Shown here: positions 18,329 through 31,951 of the stretch, piece after piece
Layout of the letters: every line of letters starts with the position of its first letter
How positions within the stretch are numbered: position 1 is the stretch's first letter
Assembly: GCA_017404955.1 (NCBI GenBank)
Contig: JAFRBH010000006.1
Coordinates: 1 to 33,114, forward strand
DNA: 33,114 nucleotides
Origin: Candidatus Saccharimonadota bacterium
GTDB lineage: Bacteria > Patescibacteriota > Saccharimonadia > Saccharimonadales > Saccharimonadaceae
Direction: 5' to 3'
Translations under genes and position numbers: made by a program
The notes under the pieces: model-generated
What the model was told of the DNA's origin: nothing
The model's input: only the letters and a program-made list of their open reading frames with translations
The model's database searches: none

Positions 18329-18769
18329 TTAAATGTCTAGGTCGTCCATATCGGCAAGTTCAGCACGAGTCTTCTCGGCGAGATCAGAAGCACTATCTGG
18401 CTCTTCTACTGGAGCTTCTTCAACAGTTTCTGCTGCAACAACTTCTTCTTTTGGAGTATCAATCACTTCGACAGATTCAGTTTCTTTGGCAGGAGCCTCC
18501 TTCTTAGGAGCAGGGGCGCCTTCATCGGTGTTAACAATCTTGAGATTGAATCTTGCATCATTCTTGGTGCCAAGAGCACGAAGCAAGGTGCGAATAGATT
18601 GTGCTGTTGCGCCACGACGGCCAATTACGCGGCCGACATCTTCTGGGTCAACAGAGAGAGACAAGAGAACGCCTTTTTCATCGATTTTGCGATCTACTAC
18701 GACTTTGTCTGGGTTATTTACTAGAGTTTTTACGATATATTCTACGAATTGCTGGTCAATGGTTGCCAT
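18329..18769 (-). CDS. khpA: KH-domain RNA-binding protein (KhpA/YlqC type) with an acidic tail
   Basis: KhpA-type proteins are small KH proteins that bind many RNAs and usually act with KhpB/Jag. The first 75 or so residues match the family: FVEYIVKTLVNNPDKVVVD, then DPEDVGRVIGRRGATAQSIR with the RNA-binding GxxG loop GRRG at residues 50-53, then LRALGTKNDARFNLKIV. The usual length is about 75-80. Here a tail of about 70 residues rich in Glu, Ala, Pro and Val is added, ending MDDLDI. GGAG precedes the ATG. It lies after rpsP as in many bacteria, but here it has its own promoter and terminator. Confidence 0.93.
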   Translation of the reverse strand: MATIDQQFVEYIVKTLVNNPDKVVVDRKIDEKGVLLSLSVDPEDVGRVIGRRGATAQSIRTLLRALGTKNDARFNLKIVNTDEGAPAPKKEAPAKETESVEVIDTPKEEVVAAETVEEAPVEEPDSASDLAEKTRAELADMDDLDI

Positions 18770-18801
18770 TTGAATTCTCCAGATTAGTTGTTAATGTTTT
18801 T

Positions 18802-18810
18802 ATTATAGCA
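18802..18810 (-). promoter_or_regulatory. Promoter of the KH-protein gene
   Basis: On the minus strand TGCTATAAT, a perfect extended -10, lies 33 bases before the ATG. The -35 (CATCAA at a 17-base spacing) is weak. Confidence 0.7.
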
Positions 18811-18839
18811 GATTTTTTAGATTTTTGATGAAAAAAGTC

Positions 18840-18869
18840 TTGACTTTCACTTTTTGCTTATGCTAAACT
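18840..18869 (+). promoter_or_regulatory. Plus-strand promoter in the S16-KH gap
   Basis: TTGACT (18840-18845) and TAAACT (18864-18869, preceded by TGC as an extended -10) are 18 bases apart. The direction is opposite to both neighbouring genes. Confidence 0.5.
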
Positions 18870-18875
18870 AGAAGA

Positions 18876-18968
18876 AGTTCGAATTGAACTTAAGCTTACT
18901 GCGAGTCAGCTTACATACAAGTTGAGAGCTTATCTGTTCAAAAAACCACCCCTTGAGGTGGCTTTTTG
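18876..18968 (+). ncRNA. Candidate small RNA between S16 and KH genes
   Basis: A plus-strand promoter just upstream and an intrinsic terminator at 18940-18967 (CCACC-CCTTGA-GGTGG-CTTTTT) bound about 93 bases with no reading frame of note. The body can fold into AAGTTC/GAACTT with a 5-base loop (right at the start) and a second hairpin AAGCT..AC/GT..AGCTT (18891-18911). No known RNA family is recognised. The region could instead be only a bidirectional terminator with a chance promoter-like sequence. Confidence 0.4.
18940..18967 (-). terminator. Terminator of rpsP, usable in both directions
   Basis: The stem CCACC / GGTGG with a 6-base loop has A-runs and T-runs on either side, giving TTTTTT after it on the minus strand and CTTTTT on the plus strand. 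Confidence 0.85.
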
Positions 18969-18997
18969 GTTTCCGATTTGCACTATTTAGCTTTGAC

Positions 18998-19483
18998 TTA
19001 TTCAGCAGGAGTTTCTGCTGGAGCTTCAGCTGGTGCCTCTGGAGCTTCAGCTGGTGCCTCTGGAGCTTCAGCTGGAGCAGCTTCTGCAGCTTCAGTTTCG
19101 GCTGGAGCTTCTGCTGGGGCTTCGGCTGGTGCTTCACCTTCGGCTGGTGCTTCAGGAGCTGGAGCGTCCTTTGGCTGGTTCTTGCGAAGCTTGTCGGCAT
19201 GCTTAGCCTTAGAACTCTTCTTAAGAGGTTCGGCAACCCATTTTGGAAGAGCAATTTTCTCAGCCTTCAAAATACGAACCATGCGAGAAGATGGCTGAGC
19301 ACCGTGCTCCAAATAAAATTTAACTTTTTCTTTGTCCAAAGTAGTAACTTTGGCTTGAGGGTCGTAATGGCCAATTTCTGCCACAACGCGCCCAGAAAGA
19401 GGGTGACGCTGCGCTTCTTGGACGATTATCCGATACACAGGATTGTGTGTTCGGCCATTACGCTGCAAACGAATCGCTAGCAT
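18998..19483 (-). CDS. rpsP: 30S ribosomal protein S16 with a long Ala-Pro-Glu tail
   Basis: S16 is needed for assembly of the small-subunit body. Residues 1-80 are typical: MLAIRLQRNGRTHNPVYRII, EIGHYDPQAK, VKFYLEHGAQPSSRMVRIL. The family is usually 75-100 residues, and this one has 161. The last 60 or so are an Ala/Pro/Glu repeat region (units such as APAEAPE) encoded by partly exact 21-base tandem repeats. AAGGAGA lies before the ATG. It has its own promoter and terminator. The tail is probably disordered and solvent-exposed; its role is unknown. Confidence 0.96.
   Translation of the reverse strand: MLAIRLQRNGRTHNPVYRIIVQEAQRHPLSGRVVAEIGHYDPQAKVTTLDKEKVKFYLEHGAQPSSRMVRILKAEKIALPKWVAEPLKKSSKAKHADKLRKNQPKDAPAPEAPAEGEAPAEAPAEAPAETEAAEAAPAEAPEAPAEAPEAPAEAPAETPAE
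19020..19075. repeat. 21-base tandem repeat inside the S16 tail
   Basis: The unit GGAGCTTCAGCTGGTGCCTC plus one T occurs exactly at 19020-19040 and 19041-19061, then for 14 bases of a third copy. It encodes a 7-residue Ala/Pro/Glu unit and could expand or contract in frame. Confidence 0.9.
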
Positions 19484-27264: not shown

Positions 27265-27303
27265 AAAACTCCAAGCGAGCATGAGCGTTTCTACAAGAGT
27301 TTT
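27265..27303 (-). terminator. Possible terminator of dnaE
   Basis: AAAACTC / GAGTTTT (7 bp) with a 25-base loop spans the dnaE stop and is followed on the minus strand by CTTTTG. The long loop makes it doubtful. Confidence 0.35.
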
Positions 27304-30300
27304 AGGCAAGTTTTACGCACTCAGAACCCAAAAGTTCAGAGAGAGGTTTTACCAAATCATCGCTAGCATCAACTTTAAATGGCATTTTGAGAGGTTTTTT
27401 ACCAGATTTATCTTCTAGGACTAAGACTATCTCCTGAAGCCCAGGGTGTTTATCGCAAAGATGGCGAATTTCAGTCAAAACTTCAGTATTGTCGGGGTCT
27501 TTAACTAAACAATACAAGCGCTCATGAATGTTTACAGGGCTAACTGGCTCAGCTGGAGCTTTCTCCTCGGTTTTTGCTGAGGCTTTTCTAACATATTCTG
27601 CAGATGTGCGGGCTGGCCTTTTACTGCCTGTAGTGCCCTTTGGCTCAGCTATTTTCGTGCCTGTGCTTTCATAACTATCCAGAACATCGTCAGAGATAAG
27701 TTCGACACTTTCCGCTAAAACCTTAGGGTCGGGCACGATGTTGCCATTTCTGTCGCGGCAATTTACCTTGCCAGTCACCTTAATCACGTTATCTTGGACC
27801 AATTTGCCGCCAAATTGCTCAAAAATACTTGGAAAGACCACGATTTCCTGTTCGTCAGTCTTGTTTTCTATCTTAACAAAAGCCATCTTACTATTAGATT
27901 TAGTCAAAATTGTGCGAACGTCGGTAATAATACCGCCAATGGTAACAATTTTGTTGTCATTTTCTTCACAGACCATAGAATATGGGTGAGTTTGTTCCTC
28001 AAAATAGGTGTCATATTTATCAAGTGGGTGGGCAGAAAGATAGAGACCCAGCAAATCTCGCTCCCAGAGGAGTTGCTCTTTTTCGGAGGCCTCGGTTGGA
28101 GCCTTTTTAATTTCTGGCTCTGGAATGGCGCCGGCAGAACCGAAAGCGCCAAAGAGATCAGTCTGGCCAGAAGCCACATCTTTTTGACATTTTGCCCCAT
28201 AGCCCTGAATAGCTTCCAAATTAAACAACAAATCAGAACGACTACCAAAGCGATCGAAAGCGCCAGTTTTGATGGCGGCCTCCCAAGAGCGCTTATTAAA
28301 TTTAGTAGAATTTACCCTCTTCGCGAAATCGGCGACTGACTTAAACGGACCGTTTTTGTCGCGCTCTGGAATGACTTCTTCTTCTACAAGAGCTTTACCC
28401 ATACTCTTGATACCAGAGAGGCCAAAGCGAATGGTCTTCTTATCTTTAACGATTGCGAAATCACCATAGGACTCATTGATGTCTGGGCCTAAGACTTTGA
28501 GGCCCATTTTCTTACATTCGGCCATCTCAATTGCTAGACGATCGGTCCAACGCATATCGGAGGTCATCAGCGCCGCCATAAAGGCATCTGGGTAGTGGGC
28601 CTTAAGGTAAGCTGTCCAGTAAGCAATCAGAGCGTAGCATGCGGCGTGAGACTTGTTGAAACAGTAGTTTGCGAAGTCTAAAAGCTGATCCCAGAATTTC
28701 TCGGCAATCTCGCGAGTGGCACCACCGACTTTGATAGCGCCCTCGATGAATTCTGGTTTTACTTTCTCCATCAAATCAACTTTTTTCTTACCTACGGCTT
28801 TGCGCAAAGTATCAGCCTGACCACCGGTAAAACCACACCAATCTCTGGAAATCTGCATGAACTGCTCCTGGTAAATCAAAATACCATAGGTATTCTTCAA
28901 AGCTGGCTCAAGACCAGGGTGAAGATAAGTGATGCTTTCTTTGCCATGTTTCCTACGAATGAACGAATCAATAAATTGCATTGGCCCAGGACGATAAAGC
29001 GCCACCATAGCGATAATATCTTCAAATGATGAAGCCTTAAGATCTTTTAAGTAACGTTTCATGCCGGCAGATTCAAGCTGGAAGACGCCAGTAGTTTCGG
29101 CACGTTGCAAGAGTGCATAGGTCTCTGGGTCATCTAGCGGCAAGGAGTACATGTCAAGATCTACACCATAGACCTTACGAATCATTCTTAGAGCATTATT
29201 GATTACGGAAAGGTTGGAAAGGCCAAGAAAGTCCATCTTGAGAAGACCTAGTTCCTCGACTTGAGTCATTGGGAATTGTGCTGCCAAAACATCTTCACCA
29301 TCAGCACCTTTTTTCTTGGCAACCTCAAGCGGTAGGAACTTTACTAAATCATCTGGAGCGATAATCACACCACAGGCATGAACGCCATGTGAACGAATGG
29401 TACCTTCAAGTTTGGAGGCAAAATCAATCACCTCTTTGGCGGTAGGGTTATGCTCGTATTCATTCTTAAGATCTGGGACGTCCTTAATCGCGTCTTTTAG
29501 ATGTACGTGGTGACCCATCACTGGGTCTGGGACCAGTTTAGCAATACGGTCAGATTCGGCATAGGGCACTTCCAAAACGCGTGCCACATCACGAACGGCG
29601 TTTTTGGCCATCATTTTACCAAAAGTTACAATATTGGCCACACGACCACGACCGTATTTTTCGGTACAGTATTTAATAACCTCATCGCGGCGCGTATCTT
29701 GAATATCGGTATCAATATCAGGCATAGAAATACGATCTGGATTCAAGAAACGTTCAAAGAGTAGGCCGTATTTTAGAGGGTCTAACTCGGTAATTCTTAA
29801 GGCATAAGCCAAAATCGAACCAGCAGCTGAGCCACGCCCTGGACCGTAGACGATGCGCTGTTTTTTACCCCAGTTAATGAAATCCTGAACGATCAAGAAA
29901 TAGCCATTATAGCCCATTTTATCGACTACCGAAAGCTCATAATCGATGCGCTCCAAAACATCTTTTCGATCGGCTTTTTCGAGAATTTTACGACACTCTG
30001 CGATAGATAATTTTTCAGCTTCCTCCTCTGTTTTCCCGCCATATCTAAATACTAGACCACGAAATACTAATTTGTCAAGGTAAGACTTTTCGTTGTCACC
30101 CTTAGGAATACCTGGAAATTTTGGAATTAGAATACGCCCAAGCTGCAAATCAACATTACATTTTTCGGCAATTTTCTTAGTATTCCTGATAGCATCTGGG
30201 AAATCTTTGCCCCAACGTGCAATAATATCTTTTGGCGGAATAACATGGAGCTCAAAATCTTTCAAAGTCATGCGATCTTTGTCAGAAAGATTGGCAGCAG

Positions 30301-31045
30301 TACCAACACAGAGCAAAATTTCGTGAGTATCTTGATCTTCGTGTTTCAGATAGTGACCATCACAAGTTACCACGAGCGGCAAACCAGTCTCTTTGGCAAT
30401 CTGTTGCAAGCCTTCGTTAATGCGATTTTGTGACTCCCAATGAGTTGGGCTATCAGGGTGGCCATGATCCTGCATTTCTAGGTAGAAACGATCTTTGAAA
30501 GTCTTGGCGTACCAATCAACTAATTTTCTAGCGCCTTTGATGTCGCCCTCTTTTAGCTTGACAGAAATTTCCGAAGAAGCACAGCCAGAGAGACAAATAA
30601 TTCCCTCGTTATACTGTTCCATCAAATCATGATCAATGCGCGGCTTATAATACATACCTGTAAGTTCAGCCTCAGTCAGCATGCGACAGAGATTTTCAAA
30701 ACCCTTTTCGTTTTGTGCTAGAAGTGTAATATGAAAGCGCTCTTTATCATGAGCCGGATCTTTATCGGTGCGCTTTCTGGCAGCTACATAGGCCTCAAGT
30801 CCCAAAACTGGCTTGATGCCGTTATCCTTTGCAGTTTTATAAAGCTCAATTAGGCCGCTCATGGTGCCGTGATCGGTCACTGCCACCGCTTCCATACCAG
30901 TTTCTTTTACAAAATCAACCAAATCAGGAATCTTAGTCAGGCCGTCAAGCAAAGAATAGTGAGTGTGATTATGAAGATGCACAAAATCAGAAGGTGCTAA
31001 ATTCGCACCCTCAGTAATCGGACTCAGTTTGACCTCCTCAGACAT
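27302..31045 (-). CDS. dnaE: DNA polymerase III alpha subunit
   Basis: DnaE is the replicative polymerase subunit, with 1247 residues. The N-terminal PHP domain keeps all nine metal ligands as I read them: H25, H27, D34, H59, E84, H105, C155, D229 and H231. It may therefore be an active proofreading exonuclease, unlike in E. coli. The polymerase site has D443 and D445 in MPDIDTDIQD, and GPGRGSAAGS lies just before it. The C-terminus has an OB fold (IVTIGGIITDVRTI, near residue 1010) and a final domain joined by a Lys/Pro/Thr linker. The -10 box ends 6 bases before the ATG and there is no ribosome binding site, so the mRNA is probably leaderless. Confidence 0.97.
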   Translation of the reverse strand: MSEEVKLSPITEGANLAPSDFVHLHNHTHYSLLDGLTKIPDLVDFVKETGMEAVAVTDHGTMSGLIELYKTAKDNGIKPVLGLEAYVAARKRTDKDPAHDKERFHITLLAQNEKGFENLCRMLTEAELTGMYYKPRIDHDLMEQYNEGIICLSGCASSEISVKLKEGDIKGARKLVDWYAKTFKDRFYLEMQDHGHPDSPTHWESQNRINEGLQQIAKETGLPLVVTCDGHYLKHEDQDTHEILLCVGTAANLSDKDRMTLKDFELHVIPPKDIIARWGKDFPDAIRNTKKIAEKCNVDLQLGRILIPKFPGIPKGDNEKSYLDKLVFRGLVFRYGGKTEEEAEKLSIAECRKILEKADRKDVLERIDYELSVVDKMGYNGYFLIVQDFINWGKKQRIVYGPGRGSAAGSILAYALRITELDPLKYGLLFERFLNPDRISMPDIDTDIQDTRRDEVIKYCTEKYGRGRVANIVTFGKMMAKNAVRDVARVLEVPYAESDRIAKLVPDPVMGHHVHLKDAIKDVPDLKNEYEHNPTAKEVIDFASKLEGTIRSHGVHACGVIIAPDDLVKFLPLEVAKKKGADGEDVLAAQFPMTQVEELGLLKMDFLGLSNLSVINNALRMIRKVYGVDLDMYSLPLDDPETYALLQRAETTGVFQLESAGMKRYLKDLKASSFEDIIAMVALYRPGPMQFIDSFIRRKHGKESITYLHPGLEPALKNTYGILIYQEQFMQISRDWCGFTGGQADTLRKAVGKKKVDLMEKVKPEFIEGAIKVGGATREIAEKFWDQLLDFANYCFNKSHAACYALIAYWTAYLKAHYPDAFMAALMTSDMRWTDRLAIEMAECKKMGLKVLGPDINESYGDFAIVKDKKTIRFGLSGIKSMGKALVEEEVIPERDKNGPFKSVADFAKRVNSTKFNKRSWEAAIKTGAFDRFGSRSDLLFNLEAIQGYGAKCQKDVASGQTDLFGAFGSAGAIPEPEIKKAPTEASEKEQLLWERDLLGLYLSAHPLDKYDTYFEEQTHPYSMVCEENDNKIVTIGGIITDVRTILTKSNSKMAFVKIENKTDEQEIVVFPSIFEQFGGKLVQDNVIKVTGKVNCRDRNGNIVPDPKVLAESVELISDDVLDSYESTGTKIAEPKGTTGSKRPARTSAEYVRKASAKTEEKAPAEPVSPVNIHERLYCLVKDPDNTEVLTEIRHLCDKHPGLQEIVLVLEDKSGKKPLKMPFKVDASDDLVKPLSELLGSECVKLA

Positions 31046-31051
31046 AGTTCT

Positions 31052-31060
31052 ATTATACCA
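31052..31060 (-). promoter_or_regulatory. Promoter of dnaE, close to the start codon
   Basis: TGGTATAAT (-10 hexamer at 31052-31057) lies on the minus strand, and the ATG begins 6 bases after the hexamer. The -35 is weak. Transcription would start at or next to the A of the ATG. Confidence 0.75.
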
Positions 31061-31071
31061 AATAATTCCAG

Positions 31072-31239
31072 TTAAATAAGATTAAAATAGCAAAAAAGCT
31101 TAGCTCGACTTACGTCAAATCAAAATAAGTTTCCTAGGCAAGTCTGCGCCGAAATTACAGTTTCGTGCTCGACTTGTAGGAAACTTATTTCGATTTGGTG
31201 CGTCGAAATGTCGCTTTTTTACTATTTCAATCTCTATTT
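31072..31239. repeat. Long imperfect palindrome between the YtxH-type gene and dnaE
   Basis: Two arms of about 75-80 bases are complementary with few mismatches and small indels. The best part is 31116-31136 against 31177-31197 (20 of 21 pair). Nearer the centre CAAGTC pairs with GACTTG, and at the tip CGAAA (31150-31154) pairs with TTTCG (31161-31165) around TTACAG. The outer parts AAAAAAGC/GCTTTTTT and AGATTAAAATAG/CTATTTCAATCT also pair. As RNA it is one long hairpin with a T-run after it on the minus strand, so it can end the 31234 transcript. It could also be a mobile-element remnant. Confidence 0.85.
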
Positions 31240-31683
31240 AGTGCGGAGTTTCTTGGCGCCTTTTTCTAGGGTGTTAGCAGCACTATTTCTAGCCTTTTTG
31301 ATGTCTTTGTTCGCAGTGCGCTTAGCTTTGTTGGCGGTAGTGCCGACCTTTTTACTGACAGTTTTGGCGGTGCGCTTAACGGAAGCTTCAACACGCTTAG
31401 ATTCGCGGCCAATATTCTTGGCAGCTTGACGACCTCTGGCTTTAGCAGCCTTGGCAACCTTTTTGCCTTTAGCTTCTAGTTTCTTGCCTTCGGCCTTAGC
31501 TTCCTTCAAAGCTTTTTTACCTTTCTTTTCGAGATCTTTTCTGGTTTCCTTGCCAGATTTTGGAGCAGTTAAAATTCCTGCTACTGCACCAGCAACAGCT
31601 CCAAGAGCTGCGCCAAGCACAAATGCTCCACCTTTACCTGATTTTTTGCCGCCCTTTTCTGCTTTTTTCTTAGAGTCTGTCAT
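31234..31683 (-). CDS. YtxH-type protein with a lysine-rich tail
   Basis: The ATG at 31683 (MTDSKKKAEK, with AAAGGA upstream) gives 149 residues. Residues 20-50 match the YtxH pattern: a glycine- and alanine-rich hydrophobic helix (FVLGAALGAVAGAVAGILTA) then PKSGKETRKDL. The remaining 95 or so residues are very rich in Lys, Ala and Arg, like histone H1, and probably bind nucleic acid or an acidic surface. The family is found in envelope-stress contexts in Firmicutes, but its activity is not established. It is the last gene after galU-like and 31694-31951 and is followed by the long palindrome. Confidence 0.85.
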   Translation of the reverse strand: MTDSKKKAEKGGKKSGKGGAFVLGAALGAVAGAVAGILTAPKSGKETRKDLEKKGKKALKEAKAEGKKLEAKGKKVAKAAKARGRQAAKNIGRESKRVEASVKRTAKTVSKKVGTTANKAKRTANKDIKKARNSAANTLEKGAKKLRTK

Positions 31684-31693
31684 TTTATCCTTT

Positions 31694-31951
31694 CTATTTC
31701 TTGGCTGACTTCTTGTTACCATCATTATACTTATCAACGAAATTTTTGACAAGACCACCGACTGAAGTCATACCTTTAACATTCTCGGCGATGTCGGCAG
31801 TCTTATCAGCAATGTGTTGACCCTTATCAACGATAGCCTGAGCACCCTTAGAAATCTTGATGAGTTTGACTAGAAGAATGATTCCCAAAATTAAGAAGAT
31901 AAAGAGCGTAACTGATAGAATTACGACTAAAATCCAAGTTGCGAGTTCCAT
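31694..31951 (-). CDS. Small single-helix membrane protein
   Basis: This 85-residue protein has one N-terminal membrane helix (residues 5-31, WILVVILSVTLFIFLILGII) followed by an amphipathic helix region (residues 35-75) with regular Lys/Asp spacing and a basic tail. It resembles DUF948-type proteins in layout, but the match is not firm. AAAGGAAC precedes the ATG. It lies between the galU-like gene (11 bases upstream) and the YtxH-type gene (10 bases downstream), so the three form one operon. Confidence 0.85.
   Translation of the reverse strand: MELATWILVVILSVTLFIFLILGIILLVKLIKISKGAQAIVDKGQHIADKTADIAENVKGMTSVGGLVKNFVDKYNDGNKKSAKK

Follow-up and report, generated by a model that had tools for sequence, protein, structure and literature searches.

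A palindrome beside dnaE as a probable copy of a dispersed element with locus-specific arms in one genus of Saccharibacteria

The near-complete inverted repeat at 31072-31239, which separates a YtxH-like gene from dnaE in the stretch of 33,114 nucleotides analysed here (the window), is probably an intergenic member of a family of selfish palindromes dispersed in the genomes of one genus of Saccharibacteria. Its conserved apex and inner arms recur at many loci, either between genes (mostly at gene 3' ends) or in frame within conserved genes. Comparison of the loci shows that at the known empty sites one arm corresponds to host sequence and the other to its inverted copy, and that the outer arms, as judged from alignments, are unique to each locus, still pair and change jointly over time.

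The palindrome of the window and the spread of its family

The features of the region are as follows.

31234..31758, minus strand: upstream gene, coding for a YtxH-like Lys/Ala-rich protein (PF12732, 3.4e-11)
31212..31239, minus strand: outer arm, 5' side on the minus strand, including the end and stop codon of the upstream gene
31171..31211, minus strand: inner arm, common to other copies (same similarity span as 31109..31144)
31145..31170, minus strand: apex, motif GAGYAC..stem-loop..GGCGCA (CGAGCACGAAACTGTAATTTCGGCGCAG on the minus strand), with invariant or near-invariant columns and a covarying apical stem
31109..31144, minus strand: inner arm, common to other copies in the genome (similarity spans query 35-137, equal to window 31109-31211)
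31072..31108, minus strand: outer arm, 3' side on the minus strand, locus-specific, pairing with 31212-31239
31052..31057, minus strand: TATAAT, probable -10 box of dnaE (consensus match only; a like box is found in most relatives read)
27302..31045, minus strand: dnaE, DNA polymerase III alpha (Pfam DNA_pol3_alpha and PHP)

An earlier note on this DNA had described arms paired nearly throughout, and indeed an alignment of 31072-31156 with 31158-31240 shows an inverted repeat almost from end to end, the inner 21-mers (31116-31136 and 31177-31197) match at 20 of 21 positions, and the outermost pairs do reach the stop codon of the upstream gene, TAAATAG being its last codon plus stop. This stop codon (31234-31236, minus strand) falls within the hairpin stem. 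The outermost block is formed by TAAATA-AGATTAAAATAGCAAAAAAGC pairing with TAAATAGAGATTGAAATAGTAAAAAAGC, the latter holding the last codon and stop of the YtxH-like gene, and the alignment score of the outer arms (39) was reached by none of 2000 shuffles (maximum 30). For 31040-31270 the folding energy is -88.7 kcal/mol on the minus strand, where shuffled sequences average -42.2 (z -10.9), and -79.4 kcal/mol on the plus strand (z -8.8); not one of 200 shuffles folded as well. Internal loops and bulges, which are conserved, interrupt the stem, so that it is no single unbroken helix.

The TATAAT box lies 6 nt ahead of the dnaE ATG, immediately outside the hairpin, and its position suggests that the dnaE transcript is leaderless. 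TATAAT recurs near the dnaE start in many relatives (window 31043-31057 and the dnaE genes of relatives), and similar boxes precede dnaE in relatives both with and without the hairpin. Since the box is outside the hairpin and present in either case, the hairpin may insulate dnaE to some degree as a by-product. A function for dnaE is not required of the element, which lies between the YtxH-like gene and the promoter of dnaE and whose effect on termination, if any, would be incidental. Elsewhere in the window (18400-19150) there are low-complexity coding repeats of the TTCTGCTGGAGC type, in steps of ca. 12 nt.

The earlier note had suggested a search of the genome for further copies. These were found, and the palindrome is thus dispersed and multicopy. 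By a covariance model built from 23 copies and used for the counts across genomes, its own genome (718 kb, near complete) holds nine, and copies are present in 74 of the 118 genomes of the genus, with a maximum of 24 per genome. Across the class (295 genomes from 129 genera scanned) no second genus was found to have the family. A scan for the apex pattern in contigs of 84,980 species gave 50 matches, all 50 in Candidatus Saccharibacteria records; the named records are MAGs, and wherever a source is stated it is a ruminant gut sample, the remaining titles giving none. Viral contigs gave 0 matches to the apex pattern, and a phage origin was rejected on this ground. Rfam 15 returned nothing above the gathering score for the window region or for 17 loci, and the matches below threshold, mostly microRNA precursors, were set aside, as any long hairpin resembles these. 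No tRNA or tmRNA was found as a neighbour of the copies.

A shared core and private arms that change together

The copies share an apex with the consensus C-GAGYAC-(stem-loop)-GGCGCA-G, in which the apical stem covaries and the bulges are conserved; in the alignment of copies, 22 of the 28 consensus pairs have two-sided changes. The core amounts to ca. 35-50 nt on each side of the apex. Similarity between copies extends for a median of 35 nt to the left and 36 nt to the right, and the two extents are correlated (rho 0.70; |L-R| 4 vs 18.6 when shuffled), while the hairpin itself has a median half-span of 89.5 nt per side. In other words, the similarity ends symmetrically and well inside the hairpin, which therefore consists of a common core and of outer arms that are private to the locus but still complementary. 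For the window copy the common part is 31109-31211, flanked by private arms at 31072-31108 and 31212-31239, of which the first has no similarity to the other copies in its own genome. Conserved terminal inverted repeats are absent from the copies, the similarity between them stopping well within the hairpin. The near-identical copies of one genome (G110) were excluded from this definition of the ends, their extra left sequence being common to repeated FISUMP-like gene fragments. In that genome (L067-L074) the hairpins adjoin arrays of FISUMP-like gene fragments with RRYPLSYV repeats, as well as contig ends, and these arrays could be silent cassettes for surface variation. At three copies TA target duplications were suspected by eye.

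The two arms of a copy change in concert. In 29 shared-site comparisons, copies in obgE among them (2023 stem pairs; the comparisons overlap and are non-independent), there were 422 two-sided changes against 205 expected if the arms changed independently, and 330 of the 422 retain pairing. A structured RNA kept under selection for its hairpin (a bidirectional terminator, a protector of mRNA 3' ends or an RNase III substrate) and spread by rare duplication would also be expected to show such compensatory change. The strong covariation is matched by a bias of the extragenic copies to gene 3' ends (37 convergent vs 10 divergent contexts, with a median overlap of 9 nt between gene end and stem), and the conserved apical Y-G pair, T-G or C-G, fits folding of the modelled strand. 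We nevertheless consider this explanation unlikely. Runs of at least five T at the 3' foot were found in only 11 of 108 copies, compared with 5% in control stretches, and in-frame copies occur in obgE and dus and in what we take to be alaS and argS, where a terminator would harm. The element is also missing from many genomes. Mismatches of the G.T (288) and A.C (249) types are nearly equal, with no clear strand preference, and so support no single RNA strand, although this asymmetry is weak as a test for RNA and was discarded as such. The 3' bias is explained equally well by the loss of those copies that hit promoters or genes. The super-terminator proposed in the earlier note thus fails as a general role, given the scarcity of T-runs and the many copies in frame within genes. 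The same note had held that a single conserved copy with compensatory changes and a mapped 3' end would point to a terminator; the compensatory changes are abundant, but the element is multicopy.

Template switching can create perfect hairpins and maintain or mend them (PMC8794818). Concerted arm change is expected from this process as well as from selection on an RNA, and the covariation is not decisive between the two. This is a warning that covariation alone need not imply a functional RNA.

Copies in protein genes, empty sites and a possible route of spread

By a crude overlap rule, 24 of the 115 analysed copies lie inside long ORFs, some of which may be spurious. Those that are clear concern conserved proteins. 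The ObgE linker holds copies in 11 genomes and in both orientations, the segment measuring 72 residues when empty and ca. 104 when filled. Other in-frame copies were seen in what is, by eye, presumably a P-type ATPase (two genomes) and in a gene that we likewise take to be alanyl-tRNA synthetase, alaS (one genome). Translated in frame, the family insert gives DEYETEISAQSRL, and the core peptide predicted from the reading frame in an example from ObgE or Dus is SRSIFSDGENTERPSPVTTGARER. Across species the obgE linker (L182-L231) contains at least five different recurrent inserted peptides, most of them folding as long hairpins, and the genome of the window itself has another kind of insert there (L212).

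A sister family has matches in 81 of the 118 genomes, some copies being 98-100% identical within one genome. All 21 copies examined, from seven genomes, are in frame within protein genes; they are the best matches, and this in-gene fraction may not hold family-wide. Their host genes include obgE and dus, together with one that by eye we named argS and another whose start resembles, again by eye, that of miaA. In one genome (L334, G147) a single gene, presumably arginyl-tRNA synthetase (argS) as named by eye, has two inserts of one palindrome family in different reading frames. The 75-nt core of the sister family has a median identity of 95% between loci, compared with 39% for its 18-nt outer arms, and the arms are 72% complementary within a locus vs 33% across loci (ungapped). 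Some copies have longer common arms (105 vs 81 nt), which suggests that layers gained at one site can travel to the next.

These identities bear on the possibility that there is no mobile element at all, and that short hairpins have been enlarged in place by template switching while the core was spread by gene conversion. Such mutational growth would account for inverted copies of the flanks and for concerted arm change (PMC8794818), but we find it rather improbable, as a 75-nt core that is ca. 95-100% identical at unrelated loci without common flanks requires a step of copying between loci, and as several distinct cores are found at one dus site.

Empty and filled sites can be compared at the same locus over more than 100 genomes, and the mode of insertion is therefore readable from sequence. 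Of the 32 genomes read at one site in dus (dihydrouridine synthase, by Pfam), 13 are filled, with four or more different cores, and 19 are empty. The longest inverted repeat is 4-7 bp in 16 of these 19, the same as in control windows; arms at the filled sites measure ca. 15-20 bp. There the left arm is the stretch that encodes the host motif LYE(K/E)Y, present in the empty genes, and the right arm repeats this stretch in inverted form. Among the empty genes, that of G018 (L368) has an 11-bp palindrome of the arm sequence around a 6-nt loop, with no core; we take it for the scar of core loss, although a pre-existing target hairpin is an alternative.

At the dnaE site of G032 there is a related hairpin, and its distal arm is a mirror of TAAAGAAGCGCAAATAG, 17 nt of the YtxH gene end including the stop. 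Part of this gene end, CGCAAATAG, occurs in G021 and G110, both without such a hairpin; the G110 empty site is too diverged to tell alone which arm of the window's palindrome is the copy. The convergent jag / LytR-CpsA-Psr site has a gap of 1-2 nt in some genomes and hairpins of different families in others. In G133 and G111 a single palindrome takes in the ends of both facing genes, which for this reason share their terminal residues (SAE, ELN). A fixed polarity of the host-derived arm was considered and rejected, host sequence having been seen on either side. Counting against a mobile element, the same sites are occupied in several species, and neither an excision product nor a within-species polymorphic insertion turned up.

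A MITE or IS derivative could have entered or displaced hairpins that were already present, the mode proposed for IS1272 (PMC5678879), in which case the arms would be those of the target. This would fit the G018 allele with its arms, 6-nt loop and missing core, but is highly improbable in view of the 16 of 19 empty dus sites without a palindrome above control windows, the host coding sequence and stop codons within the arms and the absence of conserved terminal repeats. Among the options of the earlier note a MITE-type remnant nevertheless came nearest: dispersal and multiple copies were borne out, whereas constant termini are absent and each locus has outer arms of its own, copied in inverted form from the target.

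How the selfish element would move is a more tentative matter. It may spread without a transposase, the core being captured at a DNA end where fold-back synthesis copies the flank, so that each move would add an inverted layer ("onion" palindromes). The hairpin, as single-stranded DNA or as a hairpin end, would become attached where the DNA is broken or synthesis has stalled; its own end would fold back, copy ca. 15-35 nt of flanking DNA and then join the far side. This would place the core between the flank and its inverted copy, the order that is observed. Thereafter, switches of template inside the hairpin would keep the arms matched, and copies would survive where harm is small, at gene ends and as in-frame loops. 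If this were true, the target duplications would be inverted instead of direct, and the ends of neighbouring genes would be rewritten. A scan limited to the families of Y1 transposase and reverse transcriptase found no associated transposase or dedicated enzyme. A RAYT transposase was rejected as partner, Y1 being found in 5 of the 118 genomes of the genus and absent from G000, and so was reverse transcriptase, found in 70 of the 118 and missing from hairpin-bearing genomes such as G026 and G054.

Relation to known palindromic elements

The closest likeness is to the Rickettsia palindromic elements (RPEs), reportedly the work of Ogata et al. 2000/2002. In RPEs the whole element, arms included, is common between loci. 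They have been described (PMC10969869) and, like ours, are palindromes of ca. 100-150 bp, with several families per lineage, found in frame in unrelated genes and between genes of host-dependent bacteria with reduced genomes. As in RPEs, we found a multicopy dispersed palindrome with a long hairpin and its in-frame insertion in unrelated protein genes. Here, however, only the core is common between loci and the outer arms are inverted copies of the target; the arms also stay matched, whereas RPEs reportedly lose repeat identity (PMC6649704). The sequence comparison with RPEs was limited to an exact-pattern scan, in which the core pattern was seen only in Saccharibacteria records. We have not filed the element as an RPE because its arms differ between loci and homology is not demonstrated. 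The inverted-target signature is unusual. Searches of the open-access literature yielded neither an account of such elements from Saccharibacteria or Patescibacteria nor a description of locus-copied inverted outer arms for any bacterial repeat.

MITEs and the Correia, ERIC and BOX repeats are dispersed non-autonomous palindromes of intergenic DNA (reviewed in PMC10969869). Our intergenic copies resemble them in this but have no constant terminal inverted repeats, their ends varying by locus, and show an inverted copy of the flank where a MITE would have a direct target duplication. REP/BIME sequences with their RAYT transposase are also dispersed hairpins outside genes (PMC2817692, PMC3733652), although REPs measure 20-40 nt and Y1 transposase is absent from G000. 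IS1272, by stem-loop replacing transposition, targets pre-existing palindromes (PMC5678879); in both cases palindromes are linked to insertion, but most empty sites here are without one. In nematomorph mitochondria, coding palindromes with concerted evolution of the arms have been described and template switching proposed (PMC6649704). These are likewise long inverted repeats in coding sequence with arms evolving in concert, but they are described as arms of the gene itself, with no common mobile core.

Palindromic elements inside protein genes are known mainly from Rickettsia and relatives, and here they appear in an unrelated lineage of reduced genome and in several families. Essential proteins (ObgE, Dus, tRNA synthetases) thus gain peptides unrelated to them, and mirrored gene ends, by mutation. 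A third palindrome family is located between genes; its query had matches in 51 of the 118 genomes, and it has a constant end motif, AATCTGGTCTAAATCTCATTATG, in the jag / LytR-CpsA-Psr intergenic region (L234, L235, L236, L254).
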